A DNA stretch of 42,409 nucleotides from a virus, in IMG/VR virus record IMGVR_UViG_3300045107_000043, positions 1 through 42,409 of that record; one strand, written 5' to 3'. Positions 32,761 through 42,409 of the stretch are shown one piece after another. The notes beneath the pieces were generated by a model. That model worked only from the letters and a program-made list of their open reading frames with translations. It made no database searches and was not told the origin of the DNA. The first letter of the stretch is position 1, and each line of letters begins with the position of its first letter. Position numbers and translations under genes: made by a program.

Positions 32761-34158
32761 TCAGTCGATCCATCCCGTCTGCTCCTGCGTCCTAGGCTTA
32801 ACTCCTTGATAAACACGGGAAGGTGTGCCGTAAGCGCGCATCAGTTTTGACGTAACGCCTAACCGAACCATTGCCGCGTTGAATGTCTTTGCGGTTCCCG
32901 GCTGCTCGCCATTGCGGCGGGCGAACGCAGACCATTTTTCAAACAGGATTGCGCGAGTCTCCCACGCGCCAGCCTCAAAGATCAGTTCCTCATCGACCCA
33001 GCGTCCGAACGTGTCCTGGTCCTCGAAATACTCATCCGTCGCGGCGACAACCGATTCCGGCCGCCCAAGGCCGTCGCGCTGCCAGTCGAGGCAGCCTTGG
33101 AGCGCCCAGGCGAGGATGCGCGGCGCTTCTTCCTTCAGCTTCTCCTCAAGCATGTGGTCCGGCTCGGGCGGGCGGTGCACGAAGGGCAGCATGTTGAAGC
33201 GGCGGCGCATTGCCGGATCGACGGCGTTAAGCGTCGGCTGGTGGTTGCCAGCGAAGAGCAACTTGAAGTGCGGCTGGTAGGTGAAGAAGTCCTGCCGCAT
33301 GAAGCGCGCGGTGATCGGATCGCCGCCAGTCAGCGCCTTAATCCGCGCCTCCGCCCAGGATCGACCTTCCTCGGTCTCCGAGGCCGTGACCAGCCGCGCG
33401 CCTTTCAGCATCGCCAGCTCGGTCGGGTGCGAATTGAACTTGGACGACGTGAACGTGTCCATCGGCGCGGAGACCGCGTAGTCGCCCAATATGTGGACGA
33501 GGATGTTCAGGAACACCGACTTGCCGTTGCCGCCGGGGCCGTAGATGAAGAACAGTGCGTGCTCGGTGGTGAGACCGGTGAGGCAATAGCCCGCCACACG
33601 CTGCAGATAGGTCATCATCTGCGGATCGCCGCGCGTGGCGTCGTTCAGGAACTTCAGCCACAGCGCCGGGTCTTTCTTCTCCGGGTAGCAGCCGGTCAGT
33701 TTGGTGATGCCATCGGACGGCCGCGGCGAGTGCATCCGGCCGTTCTTGAGGTTCAGCGTGCCCTTTGGCGTGCCAAGCAGCCACGGATCGCTGTCCCAGA
33801 TTTCAGACGTGACGGCGTGCGTTGGATCGGCGCGGGCGAAGCGCTCGGCTCCGCCCGCCACCGACGCCTTGCACATCTGCTTGGACCCGGCGGTGAGGCG
33901 GCGGCCTATCTCCCGCGAGTAATGAAACGCGGCCGGGACGTTCAGCGGCCGCCAGTGCGTGGTCGACCACTGATACCATTTGCCGGCGTCATGATCGAAC
34001 CGCATCGTCGAGCCGTGCTCGCGGGTAAAGGCGAGCGCGATCGCGTCTTCCGAAATGTCGGTCGGCTTCGCGCCAGGCATGACAACCACGTTGTCCGCCG
34101 CGAAGTCCCGCTCATACGCCTCGATCGGCGGATCGTCGAAATCGAACTCGTCAGCCAC
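32761..34158 (-). CDS. SF3 helicase with D5-type primase C-terminal domain
   Basis: A 465-residue protein. GTG 34158 is preferred because it makes the GTGGCTGA overlap with the previous stop; the frame is open to 34167. The first half contains the D5_N-like segment (SEIWDSDPWLLGTPKGTLNL, PALWLKFLNDATRGD). The ATPase part has Walker A in YGPGGNGKS (about residues 206-214), Walker B-like LVTASETEEG and a sensor region FKLLFAGNHQP, the pattern of the P4/D5 group. It would unwind DNA at the phage origin; no primase active site is visible in this chain. Confidence 0.85.
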   Translation of the reverse strand: MADEFDFDDPPIEAYERDFAADNVVVMPGAKPTDISEDAIALAFTREHGSTMRFDHDAGKWYQWSTTHWRPLNVPAAFHYSREIGRRLTAGSKQMCKASVAGGAERFARADPTHAVTSEIWDSDPWLLGTPKGTLNLKNGRMHSPRPSDGITKLTGCYPEKKDPALWLKFLNDATRGDPQMMTYLQRVAGYCLTGLTTEHALFFIYGPGGNGKSVFLNILVHILGDYAVSAPMDTFTSSKFNSHPTELAMLKGARLVTASETEEGRSWAEARIKALTGGDPITARFMRQDFFTYQPHFKLLFAGNHQPTLNAVDPAMRRRFNMLPFVHRPPEPDHMLEEKLKEEAPRILAWALQGCLDWQRDGLGRPESVVAATDEYFEDQDTFGRWVDEELIFEAGAWETRAILFEKWSAFARRNGEQPGTAKTFNAAMVRLGVTSKLMRAYGTPSRVYQGVKPRTQEQTGWID

Positions 34159-34480
34159 GCCCACCAACAGCCTCCGCCAATCTGTCGAGCCTCATCGCGG
34201 CCCGCAGCAGCAGGCGCAGCGCGTCGAGCAGCAGCGCCAGTTCGTCCTCCGAAACCGGCGCATAGGTGTAGTCGAGCGCCAGCCGCTGAATCTCAGCTCG
34301 CGCGCCGAGGGCTTCCGGTGAGCACTTGCCCTTGCCGATAAGCGCCGTGGCGTTTTCGCGCGCGCTCATGATGCGGCAGCGAAGCTCTAGCTCGCGTCCG
34401 TGGCAGGCGGGCAGGAAGGTCCGGATCGTGTCGGCGTAGCGCGCCATTTCCGGGGGGATGATGGTGGCTGGCGCGTTCAC
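34151..34480 (-). CDS. Hypothetical helical protein
   Basis: A 109-residue protein starting with GTG at 34480, in GTGA overlap with the HNH gene. It is mostly helical with a Leu/Ala/Arg-rich end ([20 protein letters not shown]). The start codon overlaps what appears to be the original end of the VRR-NUC gene, so it was probably coupled to that gene before the HNH gene arrived. No family recognised. Confidence 0.6.
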
Positions 34481-34518
34481 CGCAGCCCCTCCAGCACCTT
34501 CAGGTCAACCGGCGCGCC
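34477..34518 (-). repeat. Copy 1 of the duplicated VRR-NUC tail (on the HNH gene)
   Basis: Fourteen codons including the stop, coding [13 protein letters not shown]. Compared with copy 2 (34899-34940), 11 of 13 residues agree but only about 30 of 42 bases: almost every codon differs at its third base. Both copies end in GTGA and so give the same coupling to the next gene. Confidence 0.85.
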
Positions 34519-34902
34519 CCATTGATGTGGCGGCTTTATCCTGCCCTTCCGAATACCATCCGCAGTGTTTTCGGCCGGCGTTCCCCAGAAAAGGTGACGC
34601 GGATTGGTGCAGATCGGATTGTCGCAATGGTGACAGGCGAAGTGCTGAGCCGTCGGTCTGGGGCGGCCATCCAACTCTAACGCGACATGCGTCCCGAGCC
34701 GAATTTTCTTATCGACGCGAAGAACGGGATAGCCGACCCCGTTGTGGGCACCCGACCAATTCCAGCATTCATCGTCGCCGCCGCGCACCTGAAACTTGGC
34801 CAAGCGGGACGAAAGCGGCCGCTTCCGAGCCTCCATCATGCGAGCGCGAGTTTCGGGGTCTGCCCACCGAGCCTTAGAAGCAGCCCCGCGCCAACAAGTC
34901 AC
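34477..34902 (-). CDS. HNH endonuclease inserted at the 3' end of the VRR-NUC gene
   Basis: A 141-residue protein starting with GTG 34902 in GTGA overlap with the VRR-NUC stop. Residues 8-28 ([18 protein letters not shown]) look like a short NUMOD-type DNA-binding element. The HNH core is [15 protein letters not shown], then [20 protein letters not shown] (H91-H92, C93, C98, H103) and the final N111. The last 13 residues, [13 protein letters not shown], are not part of the HNH fold and repeat the end of the upstream protein ([13 protein letters not shown]). I read this as the original VRR-NUC tail, now fused in frame to the invader. See findings. Confidence 0.82.
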
Positions 34903-34940
34903 AGTAGCCCCTCCAAGATTTTGAGATCGACAGGGGCACC
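34899..34940 (-). repeat. Copy 2 of the duplicated VRR-NUC tail (recoded, on VRR-NUC)
   Basis: Fourteen codons coding [13 protein letters not shown] and stop. It differs from copy 1 mainly at wobble bases (for example GGT for GGC, CCT for CCG, GAT for GAC, AAA for AAG), with only two residue changes. This copy would have come in with the HNH cassette and keeps the nuclease protein complete. Confidence 0.8.
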
Positions 34941-35336
34941 TATTGAATGAAGCCAGCGAAAGGCGCCTTCCGCAGTCCTGACAACCGCTACCCGCTGCCC
35001 CATTCTTGACATTCTATCGAGCCAGTCGCGCTGACTCTGCTCGACCGACCCAGTCCCCGATTTAAACTCCAGCCACCCCGAGCCGTGGTTCCAGCAGACG
35101 TGAAGGTCCGCGACCCCGGCGCGCATCCCCTCGCGCTTGGCTTTGGCGACCTCCCAGCGCGTGCGGCGCGCGGCGTTGGGGATCGCGAACGCCAGCAGCC
35201 CCGGCGCGACGAACGGGATCAACTGCAGGAACTGCAGCTGACGCTGTTCCTCGCTCAACGGGAGCTTGTCGCGCGGGCAGATGTGCCAAGTCGCGGGCGG
35301 CACAGCATCGTCCAGAAGGCGGGCGAGAGCGCTCAT
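34899..35336 (-). CDS. VRR-NUC domain nuclease
   Basis: A 145-residue protein from ATG 35336, in ATGA overlap with the preceding stop. It has the VRR-NUC pattern: [40 protein letters not shown] (D77, then E90 and K92 of ExK) and [20 protein letters not shown]. The fold is PD-(D/E)XK-type, often acting on junctions or branched phage DNA together with helicases. Its last 13 codons are a near-synonymous copy of the end of the downstream HNH gene. Confidence 0.82.
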
Positions 35337-35518
35337 CCCAGCCTCTGCCGGACGAGCGCAACCTGCCACTCCGCCCATTTCTCGCCGACGCCGTGCAGGC
35401 GGACGAGCTGGTCGACCGTGATCCGCTCAGGCGACGGATGCTGATGGATGAACAGCATCGCCGCAGTCTCGCGGTCCTTCGCGGTGCGCGGCTTGGGGGC
35501 GTGGGCGTTACCGCGCAC
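35333..35518 (-). CDS. Small phage protein, possible DNA-binding
   Basis: A 61-residue protein, basic at the start (MRGNAHAPKPRTAKDRETAA) and with ITVDQLVRLHGVGEKWAEWQ in the second half, which resembles a helix-hairpin-helix-like LHGVG turn. Overlaps both neighbours (ATGA at 35333-35336). Function unknown. Confidence 0.55.
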   Translation of the reverse strand: MRGNAHAPKPRTAKDRETAAMLFIHQHPSPERITVDQLVRLHGVGEKWAEWQVALVRQRLG

Positions 35519-35951
35519 CGGTCAACTCCCGTTCCAGCGCGGCGATCTCCGCGTCGAGCGCTGCATCGGTGGCGCGGCGCGCTTCGGTTGCGCGAACCGC
35601 ATGGACGACAGTGCTGTGATCCCGCCCGCCGAACCAGCGCCCGATCATCGGCAGCGAGCGGCCGGTGAGGTGGCGGGTCAGATACATCGCGACCTGGCGG
35701 GGCCGCGCCACCGGCCTGCGCCGCGACGGCCCGCGCAGTTGGGCCGCCGGCACGTCGAAGCGCTCGCTCACCGCCGCGACGATGCGGGCCGTCGGGATAA
35801 ACGGCCGCGGCGGAGTCAGCGCATAGTAGACCCGATGCTCGCACGCCTTTTGAGTGCGGCCGAGGACGATGGCGATGACTGAGAATGGAACACCGGCGCT
35901 GCGCATATCCTTCAGCGCGCGGGTTTCGTCGTCGGTCCAGAGGCGGCTCAT
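35508..35951 (-). CDS. DnaA domain IV-like protein with N-terminal helix-turn-helix
   Basis: A 147-residue protein from ATG 35951. Residues 1-45 form a SANT/HTH-like segment (LWTDDETRALKDMRSAGVPF, IAIVLGRTQKACEHR). Residues 80-122 match the DNA-binding domain IV of DnaA: RPRQVAMYLTRHLTGRSLPM, IGRWFGGRDHSTVVHAVRA, with the DHSTV signature at 111-115. There is no AAA+ ATPase domain. It may bind DnaA-box-like sites at a phage origin, recruit the SF3 helicase, or compete with host DnaA. Confidence 0.78.
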   Translation of the reverse strand: MSRLWTDDETRALKDMRSAGVPFSVIAIVLGRTQKACEHRVYYALTPPRPFIPTARIVAAVSERFDVPAAQLRGPSRRRPVARPRQVAMYLTRHLTGRSLPMIGRWFGGRDHSTVVHAVRATEARRATDAALDAEIAALERELTGAR

Positions 35952-36121
35952 TCGCCCCTCCCCGACCAGTCCGGTGCAGCCGGCTCCATTCCGAGTTCGG
36001 CCCGCAGCTCCCGCATCCGCTCGATGATCGGAGCGCGCGCGCGGCGATGCTGTTGCTGGGCGCGGTAGCTGCGGAGGTCGCGCGTCATTTCGCGCGCGAG
36101 TTGGGCGTGCACGGGGCTCAT
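35948..36121 (-). CDS. Small helical protein
   Basis: A 57-residue frame from ATG 36121, in ATGA overlap with the methyltransferase stop (36118-36121) and with the next start (35948-35951). It begins MSPVHAQLAREMTRDLRSYR and is helical, with IIERMRELRAELGMEP in the second half. Overlaps on both sides make it a credible small gene. Function unknown. Confidence 0.55.
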   Translation of the reverse strand: MSPVHAQLAREMTRDLRSYRAQQQHRRARAPIIERMRELRAELGMEPAAPDWSGRGE

Positions 36122-37008
36122 GAGGCCTCGGCACCAGCGAACAGGTCAGCCCTCTCAGTTTCCAGCGCGCGCAGGTTCCTGACCGCCTGCTTGAAATATG
36201 ATGGCTTCAGCTCCGCGCCGAGCCCCTTACGGCCAAGCTCAGCGGCGCAATAAAGCTCGCTGCCGATGCCAGCGAATGGCGAAAAAACAACGTCACCTGG
36301 ATTGCTCCACAAGTTGATGCAGCGGCGGATGACCCCGAGCTGCAGAGGCGCGATGTGCCGCTCATCCTCGCTCTCGCGTGCTGCTCTATATTGCAGGGTG
36401 TCGGACGGATCGATGTCCATCCAGACCGGCGAGGCGTATTCCTGCCAAAGACGAACCGGAAAGCCGCTCTCGTCCTTGGTGACCGGCTCCAGATTATCGC
36501 CTGGCTTGCGGAGTGTGACAACGTAATCGGCGAACCCCTGCCGAGAAAGACAGCTATCCTTCTTGAGCTGCTTGTAGAGCAGCCCGATCGCCTTCGTTCG
36601 CTGCATCGCGGTCACTGGATCTTTCCAGATGCAGACTCGGCTGTGAAAGATGAAGCCGGCCCGCTCCGCTGCGGCGATGAGATGGCCGGGGAAATCCTTC
36701 GCCCCAATCACGCCGTCTCGAGTCTTGCTCGTCGGCATGTCCATGCAGTGCACGGAGACCAGCCGGCCAGGTTTAAGCACGCGCATCAGCCCATCGAGGA
36801 CGAAGCGATAATGCTCGAAAAAGTCGTCGTCGTTTCGGCAGTTGCCGAGGTCGCGATCGCTGTTCGAATAGGTGTATAAGCTGGCGAACGGGGGCGAGAA
36901 AACCGAATAGCCGACGCTATGCGCCGGAAGCTGGTTCATGACCTCAATGCAGTCGCCGTTGTAGAGTGCCCAGTTCGGCCCCTCGGCATAGTCCAGCGCT
37001 TCTATCAT
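36118..37008 (-). CDS. N6/N4 DNA methyltransferase
   Basis: A 296-residue protein. Motif IV, SPPF, lies at residues 38-41 in VGYSVFSPPFASLY, and the AdoMet motif I is near the C-terminus in DVVFSPFAGIGSEL (about 239-252), the beta-type order. LMRVLKPGRLVSVHCMDMP and NPGDVV are also typical. It would methylate adenine or cytosine amino groups in phage DNA, likely for protection from host restriction; no cognate endonuclease is seen. Its start overlaps the helicase stop (ATGA at 37005-37008). Confidence 0.85.
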   Translation of the reverse strand: MIEALDYAEGPNWALYNGDCIEVMNQLPAHSVGYSVFSPPFASLYTYSNSDRDLGNCRNDDDFFEHYRFVLDGLMRVLKPGRLVSVHCMDMPTSKTRDGVIGAKDFPGHLIAAAERAGFIFHSRVCIWKDPVTAMQRTKAIGLLYKQLKKDSCLSRQGFADYVVTLRKPGDNLEPVTKDESGFPVRLWQEYASPVWMDIDPSDTLQYRAARESEDERHIAPLQLGVIRRCINLWSNPGDVVFSPFAGIGSELYCAAELGRKGLGAELKPSYFKQAVRNLRALETERADLFAGAEAS

Positions 37009-39890: not shown

Positions 39891-39927
39891 GGAGCCCGAC
39901 ATGCAATCAATTCCATGGCCCGCCCCC
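39891..39927 (+). repeat. Copy 1 of the duplicated gene head (on the HNH gene)
   Basis: GGAG, six bases, ATGCAA and seven further codons (MQSIPWPAP). It matches 40376-40412: the coding part agrees in 22 of 27 bases, with most changes at third bases and two conservative residue changes (Ser/Thr, Ala/Thr). The ribosome site and its spacing are also repeated. Confidence 0.8.
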
Positions 39928-40368
39928 GTCACTGAGCGCTTTTGGTCGAGAGTAGATAAGCGAGGCCCGGAAGAGTGCTGGCCATGGAAAGGCGGGCGCA
40001 ACCATAAAGGCTACGGCCACCTTCAAATATGCGGTCGCATGAGAAAAGCGACGCAAGTGAGCTGGGAGTTGGCGAACGGCCAACCCTTCCCGGCTGGCAA
40101 GATGGCCTGTCACTCTTGTGACAATCCCCCATGCGTCAACCCACGCCACATTTGGCCCGGAACGAACGCCGACAATCTACGCGACATGATTGCCAAGGGC
40201 CGCGGTCTAAACCGGGGCGGCAACAGGCACGCAGCGCGCGACACCTGCCGAGCAGGTCATCCGCTAAGGATGAGCCCGTATCCGTCAGAAATCGGACTTC
40301 GCCGATGCGTCATTTGCGCAAACGCCAAGCGGCGCGCCCGTCAGGCTGCGCGCCGCGCGTCCCTCTAA
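39901..40368 (+). CDS. HNH endonuclease inserted at the 5' end of the next gene
   Basis: A 155-residue protein, with GGAG (39891-39894) six bases before ATG. The first 9 residues, MQSIPWPAP, repeat the start of the downstream protein (MQTIPWPTP). The HNH core is ECWPWKGGRNHKGYGH, then ACHSCDNPPCVNPRHIWPGT (H71, C73, C78, H83) and N92, the same subfamily as the HNH gene at 34477. A C-terminal zinc site is likely from C116, H120, C136 and C139. It is the first gene after the early promoter, so it would be expressed at once on infection. Confidence 0.82.
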   Translation: MQSIPWPAPVTERFWSRVDKRGPEECWPWKGGRNHKGYGHLQICGRMRKATQVSWELANGQPFPAGKMACHSCDNPPCVNPRHIWPGTNADNLRDMIAKGRGLNRGGNRHAARDTCRAGHPLRMSPYPSEIGLRRCVICANAKRRARQAARRASL

Positions 40369-40375
40369 TCACAAC

Positions 40376-40412
40376 GGAGCTGGACATGCAAACCATCCCC
40401 TGGCCCACCCCC
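40376..40412 (+). repeat. Copy 2 of the duplicated gene head (on the displaced gene)
   Basis: GGAG, six bases, ATGCAA and seven more codons (MQTIPWPTP). It gives the displaced gene its own start and ribosome site after the HNH stop at 40368. Confidence 0.8.
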
Positions 40413-40778
40413 GCCGCGCGCCGCTGCCTCGCAGCGATCGCGTCGGCCCCGATCGTCACCCGCGAGCGCCGCCGCAAGGCGTTCGTCACCAGCGCGGACG
40501 AATGGATCGTCCACACTGGCCCGCACGCGGACCTGCTGCGGCGGATGCACAACGAGGCTCTTGAAGCTTCGTGGGGCGGCCCGCGCGAAGTGTCGGCCGC
40601 GATCCTCGACGCCGATCCCGAGACGCTGATCACGCAGGCGCTGGCCGCGCGGACGGACGGCTACATCGTCCGCCAGACGCTGGTCGGTGATTGGGGCCGT
40701 AACACCGGCGCGGTGGACCAGTGGGAAGTCGCGCCGGCGCTGGCGACCGGCTCGGTTGAGCATCGGAGGGCGGCGTGA
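40386..40778 (+). CDS. Hypothetical early protein displaced by the HNH gene
   Basis: A 130-residue protein from ATG 40386. It begins MQTIPWPTPAARRCLAAIAS, followed by IVTRERRRKAFVTSADEWIV, HTGPHADLLRRMHNEALEAS and WEVAPALATGSVEHRRAA. I do not recognise a family. Before the HNH gene arrived it was probably the first gene after the early promoter. Confidence 0.65.
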   Translation: MQTIPWPTPAARRCLAAIASAPIVTRERRRKAFVTSADEWIVHTGPHADLLRRMHNEALEASWGGPREVSAAILDADPETLITQALAARTDGYIVRQTLVGDWGRNTGAVDQWEVAPALATGSVEHRRAA

Positions 40779-41952: not shown

Positions 41953-42409
41953 CCCCTCAAACGAAAGCCAAAACGATGAAGAAGATCGAGAAACTCACGC
42001 CGGAGCAGGTGACGCGTTTTCCAGAATTTGTGGAGCGGTGGACGGAAATCGGCCTTTCAACAGAGCCAGCCGACCGCCCCACCGCAGAGCGCGCCATCGC
42101 TGAGATGTATCGCGCCGCAAATTTACCTCCGCCTGAAAGGATCGTTTGGTGCGGTTCTCCGCTTTCGCAGGGCCTGACCCGCGCGGTTGTCCTTGATAAA
42201 GGATTCAGGGACAGCGTCGGGGACAGCGTCTGGGACAGCGTCAGGGCCAGCGTCTGGGCCAGCGTCGGGGACAGCGTCGGGGCCAGCGTCAGGGCCAGCG
42301 TCAGGGACAGCGTCAGGGACAGCGTCAGGGCCAGCGTCAGGGCCAGCGTCTGGGCCAGCGTCGGGGACAGCGTCTGGGCCAGCGTCAGGGACAGCGTCAG
42401 GGCCAGCGT
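41949..42409 (+). CDS. DUF6745-like protein with tetrapeptide repeats, N-terminal part (continues at base 1)
   Basis: The frame starts with GTG 41949 (GTGA overlap with the previous stop) or ATG 41976, which begins MKKIEKLTPEQVTRFPEFVE and fits my memory of family starts better; neither has a strong ribosome site. The first 80 residues (RWTEIGLSTEPADRPTAERA, IVWCGSPLSQGLTRAVVLDK) match the N-terminal part of DUF6745 proteins. At 42213 the chain enters the 12-bp repeats and runs off the window. A five-base overlap AGCGT at the two window ends keeps the frame into base 1. Confidence 0.78.
   Translation, partial: MTPQTKAKTMKKIEKLTPEQVTRFPEFVERWTEIGLSTEPADRPTAERAIAEMYRAANLPPPERIVWCGSPLSQGLTRAVVLDKGFRDSVGDSVWDSVRASVWASVGDSVGASVRASVRDSVRDSVRASVRASVWASVGDSVWASVRDSVRAS
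42213..42409 (+). repeat. 12-bp tandem array, right part (16 units plus five bases)
   Basis: Units in order, by W/R/G and A/D: GD WD RA WA GD GA RA RD RD RA RA WA GD WA RD RA, then AGCGT. This part contains the only WD unit. With the left part, 42 full units are visible: 11 WA, 10 RA, 10 GD, 6 RD, 4 GA, 1 WD. A half-unit (Arg-Asp, 42207-42212) leads into the array. Confidence 0.97.

Follow-up and report, generated by a model that had tools for sequence, protein, structure and literature searches.

Endonuclease genes that probably bring a new end to their target gene

Mobile open reading frames (mORFs) of fungal mitochondria are known from atp6 of Allomyces macrogynus and from atp6, atp9, cox2 and nad3 of Glomus sp. 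(PMC3630166). They are the closest described counterparts of the phage locus presented here. In both, an endonuclease gene lies within a target gene, the target gene has a divergent replacement of its C-terminal part, and its original C-terminal part is found further downstream, in some instances in frame with the endonuclease (PMC3630166). The mORF enzymes are of the LAGLIDADG or GIY-YIG type and are found in organelles, whereas the enzymes considered here are of the HNH type and are found in dsDNA phages. The phage cases also differ from mORFs by their stop/start overlaps, by one antisense case, and by the identity of the targets, namely VRR-NUC, a YbcO-like nuclease and a hydrolase-like gene. 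The phage arrangement works like an mORF but falls outside the mORF class, as it is carried by a virus record and its enzyme is of the HNH type.

Two other systems share part of this organization. Free-standing HNH homing endonucleases of phages, such as T4 Mob and the Skunavirus HNHEs, have in common with it, according to the available text of the reports, the HNH core, the phage host, insertion beside genes, and a spread by break repair with co-conversion of the kind proposed below (PMC2988022, PMC12724721). They differ in that the same portions of text describe neither a substitute target end nor a displaced remnant (PMC2988022, PMC12724721). Engineered home-and-rescue gene drives, as the accessible part of the report presents them, likewise pair a nuclease with a copy through which the target gene stays functional (PMC7968924). 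Those drives are engineered and Cas9-based (PMC7968924, available text), whereas the cut resistance of the phage replacement end is presumptive. No phage report of such a layout was found in the literature searched, which covered few subscription journals. Within that literature the phage HNH version is apparently new, while its logic is already known from the fungal mitochondrial mORFs.

Gene organization of the VRR-NUC/HNH locus

The window analysed is the whole virus record IMGVR_UViG_3300045107_000043, with a length of 42,409 bases. Genes coding for a VRR-NUC protein, an HNH protein and a 109-residue protein follow each other in this order on its minus strand. A GTGA overlap is present at both junctions, in agreement with the initial annotation, according to which both copies of the tail finish in GTGA and the coupling to the following gene is preserved. 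The VRR-NUC gene (34899-35333, minus strand, start codon tentative) is identified by its Pfam VRR_NUC domain (5.5e-7, 30.1 bits versus a cut-off of 23.8) and by its fold, which has a Foldseek match to the VRR_NUC structure 4qbl (3.8e-4). The HNH gene (34477-34902, minus strand) is assigned to the PHROG HNH families (PHROG 1872, 1.4e-20) and has conserved core columns, its Pfam HNH_3 score of 17.7 bits being under the curated cut-off of 24.8. The GTG start of the HNH body (codons 1-128, 34519-34902, minus strand, PHROG 1872/826) overlaps the VRR-NUC stop codon. The GTG start of the following gene (34151-34480, minus strand), whose 109 aa product has no family and whose composition is native, overlaps the HNH stop codon in turn. 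A homologue of the latter gene also follows in L001, one of the other viral contigs described below.

One small gene separates VRR-NUC from a gene (35508-36134) whose phage protein contains the C-terminal, DNA-binding domain of DnaA (Bac_DnaA_C, 2.7e-26). A 12-base tandem repeat, readable as (D/A)SV(R/W/G) units, is shared by both ends of the record (1-319 and 42205-42409), so the genome may close at the record ends.

The duplicated gene end

The carboxyl termini of the VRR-NUC protein (34902-34940, minus strand; copy 2) and of the HNH protein (34480-34518, minus strand; copy 1, GC3 0.93) are equal in 11 of their 13 residues, a count in which the ORF translations and the initial annotation agree. 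The further statement that nearly every third codon base differs is somewhat overstated, since this holds for 9 of the 13 codons. The bias it described is real: the 42-base ends, stop included, share 30 bases, and the 12 differences comprise nine at third, two at first and one at second codon positions. An 11/13 match between unrelated ORF ends has an extrapolated probability of about 1e-8 and is far beyond chance. This estimate derives from 2 million random ORF-end pairs, homologous pairs included, in which counts drop about sevenfold per added match. The 3' end of the target is present twice, once before and once after the HNH body, as it is in mORFs.

The two copies differ in their context. 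Ahead of the HNH tail stands QW, in line with the (E/Q)WGAP form common among VRR tails, versus SIGAP in the adjacent VRR-NUC protein. In the structure model of VRR-NUC the tail is predicted to form an ordered helix (pLDDT 92-96); in the HNH model it is a low-confidence appendage (pLDDT 57-71). These models fit, but do not prove, a tail that is part of VRR-NUC and would be ballast on the HNH protein.

Codon composition of the two copies

Third-position GC content (GC3) is 0.89 in VRR-NUC codons 1-89 (35067-35333, minus strand, start codon tentative), 0.61 in VRR-NUC codons 90-144 (34899-35066 with the stop, minus strand) together with HNH codons 1-127, and 0.82 in the HNH tail together with the next gene. 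A two-breakpoint fit with free edges selects VRR-NUC codon 90, which falls inside the GWLEFK motif of the conserved catalytic region, and HNH codon 127, two codons ahead of the tail; none of 100 permutations gave as good a fit. The contrast is supported by a Fisher test both with the fitted edge (2e-7) and with the edge set instead at the tail copy of 13 codons (3e-4). A per-base GC scan over 3.2 kb picked another, larger block, so the signal is one of codon usage rather than of bulk GC. Because the GC3 blocks differ, the VRR-NUC end and the HNH body look incoming, while the VRR-NUC body and the HNH tail look resident. The direction of transfer suggested for this phage is based on codon composition within short stretches, as the searches yielded no near relative of the phage in which VRR-NUC is uninterrupted. 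As judged from composition alone, a foreign origin shared by replacement end and endonuclease, another trait of mORFs, is found in the GC3 block of this phage and in a GC block of contig L184 (see below).

VRR-NUC loci of other viral contigs

Relatives of VRR-NUC were obtained by profile scans; single-protein scans of viral and genome collections returned none. Among about 50 viral VRR-NUC loci read, an HNH gene of this type is found directly downstream of VRR-NUC in two contigs, L001 and L099, and not in the rest; it is likewise not found after VRR-NUC among relatives in the bacterial family searched. Both HNH proteins end in VRR-like tails that belong to other VRR lineages. The L001 protein ends in ATVSRDADHALAFLREAGAPFIDRPGL, a VRR tail of the L132/L137 kind (E 3e-14 with a VRR-tail profile), and its own VRR-NUC ends in GFPFFGRLT, of the L134/L020 kind. 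In L099 the HNH protein ends in GAPVRARVSA, identical to the VRR-NUC tail of the uninterrupted contig L022, and the adjacent VRR-NUC ends in GAPVRRIK. This displaced tail agrees with L022 in 10/10 residues but in only 23/33 bases, and L108, to which the left flank is closest, has a tail more like the other copy. The VRR-tail profile, built without this phage, L001 and L099, scores their HNH tails at 8.3, 44.3 and 10.4 bits, respectively, versus 1.5 bits for the best of 57 other HNH carboxyl termini. The initial annotation had pointed to HNH genes with this tail away from VRR-NUC as evidence that would speak against its reading; they were looked for and none is present among the HNH sequences gathered.

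Compared with the uninterrupted gene of L108, the VRR-NUC gene of L099 is 93% identical as far as codon 76 and 75% identical beyond it, with a GC3 edge at codon 77. Control pairs fall less (0.82 to 0.71 for L108/L022, 0.80 to 0.71, and 0.77 to 0.77). Because some drop is also seen in the controls, a mosaic VRR-NUC gene in L099 is probable rather than certain, and the GC3 breakpoints of L099 and L001 are each not significant alone. In L001 the whole VRR-NUC gene, and not its end alone, belongs to a single lineage. Given this and the resemblance of the L108 tail to copy 2 of L099, the left edge of the incoming segment may have been shifted by ordinary recombination between phages. Note that in L134 (2786-3364) a different, NUMOD4-like HNH gene lies directly after VRR-NUC with a stop/start overlap and without a VRR tail; a second HNH type may thus also target the end of VRR-NUC.

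Recurrence of the layout at other genes

The screens took in about 120 distinct HNH loci and compared HNH ends with neighbouring genes and translated upstream with translated downstream DNA. Such screens detect only remnants that are still recognizable, in loci collected for their resemblance to this HNH protein or to genes nearby, and the counts are not meant as a frequency of the layout. L184 (2652-3581) has a YbcO-like gene, next an HNH gene that ends in a stop codon of its own, and then a displaced 3' end of 50 codons that forms a separate frame. Free GC breakpoints at 2780 and 3430 coincide there with the junctions defined by homology, 2787 and 3432 (0 of 300 permutations). In L224 (2692-4061) the HNH gene is antisense inside a hydrolase-like gene whose displaced 3' end lies beyond it, with a GC3 contrast of P 0.0013. 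In L134 (1068-2023) a gene for a 104-residue protein precedes an HNH gene, the product of which carries a 44-46% copy of that protein as its last 94 residues. The adjacent copy is closer to the uninterrupted L020 (62%) than the displaced copy is (47%), for which reason L134 gives no direction of transfer. When the screen was extended by twelve annotated phage HNH regions, no further case appeared. Other matches were rejected as repeats or composition artefacts, namely L171 with its tandem HNH copies, L208, L240, L289 and similar ones. A separate observation concerns L014 (3380-3430), where an HNH ORF ends in MTQDAVIFD just ahead of an HAD-like gene starting MDGTLAD, as if the start of the HAD gene had been split by a small frame change.

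The window has a second HNH gene (39901-40368, plus strand), whose head MQSIPWPAP (39901-39930) is a variant copy of the head MQTIPWPTP (40386-40415) of the next gene (40386-40778, plus strand). The bases before the two starts are also alike, ribosome-binding bases included (33/43 identical). This HNH gene is the top match of an N-terminal screen, with a score of 60 versus a background maximum of 46. From its sequence, the region 39901-40415 is a possible 5' mirror of the VRR-NUC/HNH arrangement. The head of the gene at 40386 is native-like in composition and the HNH head is not, so the mirror case gives no clear direction; relatives of the gene at 40386 are absent from the viral contigs and phages searched.

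Probable homing and alternative explanations

The explanation that we favour, and regard as likely, is that the HNH gene, by homing, supplied the target with a substitute 3' end and displaced the resident one, generating a hybrid VRR-NUC gene. It is supported directly by the duplication, by the composition blocks, and by the recurrence of the layout at VRR-NUC and at other genes.

The most serious competitor is ordinary mosaic recombination between two phages with different VRR-NUC genes, in which an HNH gene present downstream of one was by chance joined in frame to the VRR-NUC end of the other, its enzyme being uninvolved. The left edges of L001 and L099, which lie far from the tail, speak for it, as does the downstream region of L099, whose lineage is another than that of the upstream region. 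It is nevertheless unlikely, for the layout recurs at four different genes with the HNH gene between the copies each time, and native composition returns at the displaced end both in this phage and in L184. Ordinary recombination could explain single contigs, but it explains less well this recurrence with the endonuclease gene in between. Much less probable is a functional tag, that is, a carboxyl-terminal peptide through which both proteins would bind a partner or each other. The good conservation of both copies as protein would suit such a role, against which stand tails that vary between contigs while each follows VRR tails, a displaced end that is a separate frame in L184 and on the opposite strand to HNH in L224, and the low predicted order of the tail in the HNH model. 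Tandem duplication of the VRR-NUC end once HNH was in place, with later drift in which selection maintained the peptide, accounts for the nearly equal peptides at both ends but is the least credible of all, because the copies differ in composition as incoming and resident DNA would and the HNH tails of L001 and L099 match other VRR lineages instead of the adjacent VRR-NUC.

Proposed mechanism

Under the homing explanation, the putative homing HNH gene would have entered the 3' part of VRR-NUC by break repair from a donor phage, its enzyme presumably cutting the uninterrupted gene near the junction. The donor DNA would have consisted of the 3' part of the donor's own VRR-NUC homologue, about 55 codons, followed by the HNH gene overlapping its stop codon. 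The left join would lie in the conserved catalytic region, at codon 90, and the right join just ahead of the resident's last 13 codons. The latter would have become the HNH carboxyl terminus, supplying its stop codon and the overlap to the next gene. VRR-NUC would remain complete as a hybrid because the donor brought a replacement 3' part. The divergence of the replacement end may allow it to escape cutting and may make it harder for recombination between the copies to remove the cassette. The available text on the T4 endonucleases describes homing through break repair with co-conversion, and the arrangement is consistent with such a process (PMC2988022).

The initial annotation had proposed that an HNH cassette was inserted just before the last VRR-NUC codons and carried a recoded tail. 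Insertion at the VRR-NUC 3' end, a substitute end and an old end in frame on HNH are all supported by codon composition, by the layout of L001 and L099, by the ranking with the VRR-tail profile and by the other genes. The extent is revised, as the incoming stretch appears to cover about 55 VRR-NUC codons and not the last ones alone, which fits co-conversion. The idea of a purpose-made recoded tail is not supported, since the substitute end resembles a natural homologue that belongs to a different lineage.

Biological significance

A broader proposal would make phage HNH genes a general class of natural home-and-rescue elements that enter coding sequence near either end, bring an uncuttable substitute end and absorb the resident end, needing no introns or inteins. 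We put this generalization forward tentatively, with more doubt than confidence. The arrangement suggests a way for phage homing endonucleases to reside in coding sequence with no need of splicing and with the target gene still functional. It may explain hybrid gene ends and odd carboxyl-terminal extensions found in phage annotation, and it would give home-and-rescue gene drives a counterpart in nature, testable in phage crosses.
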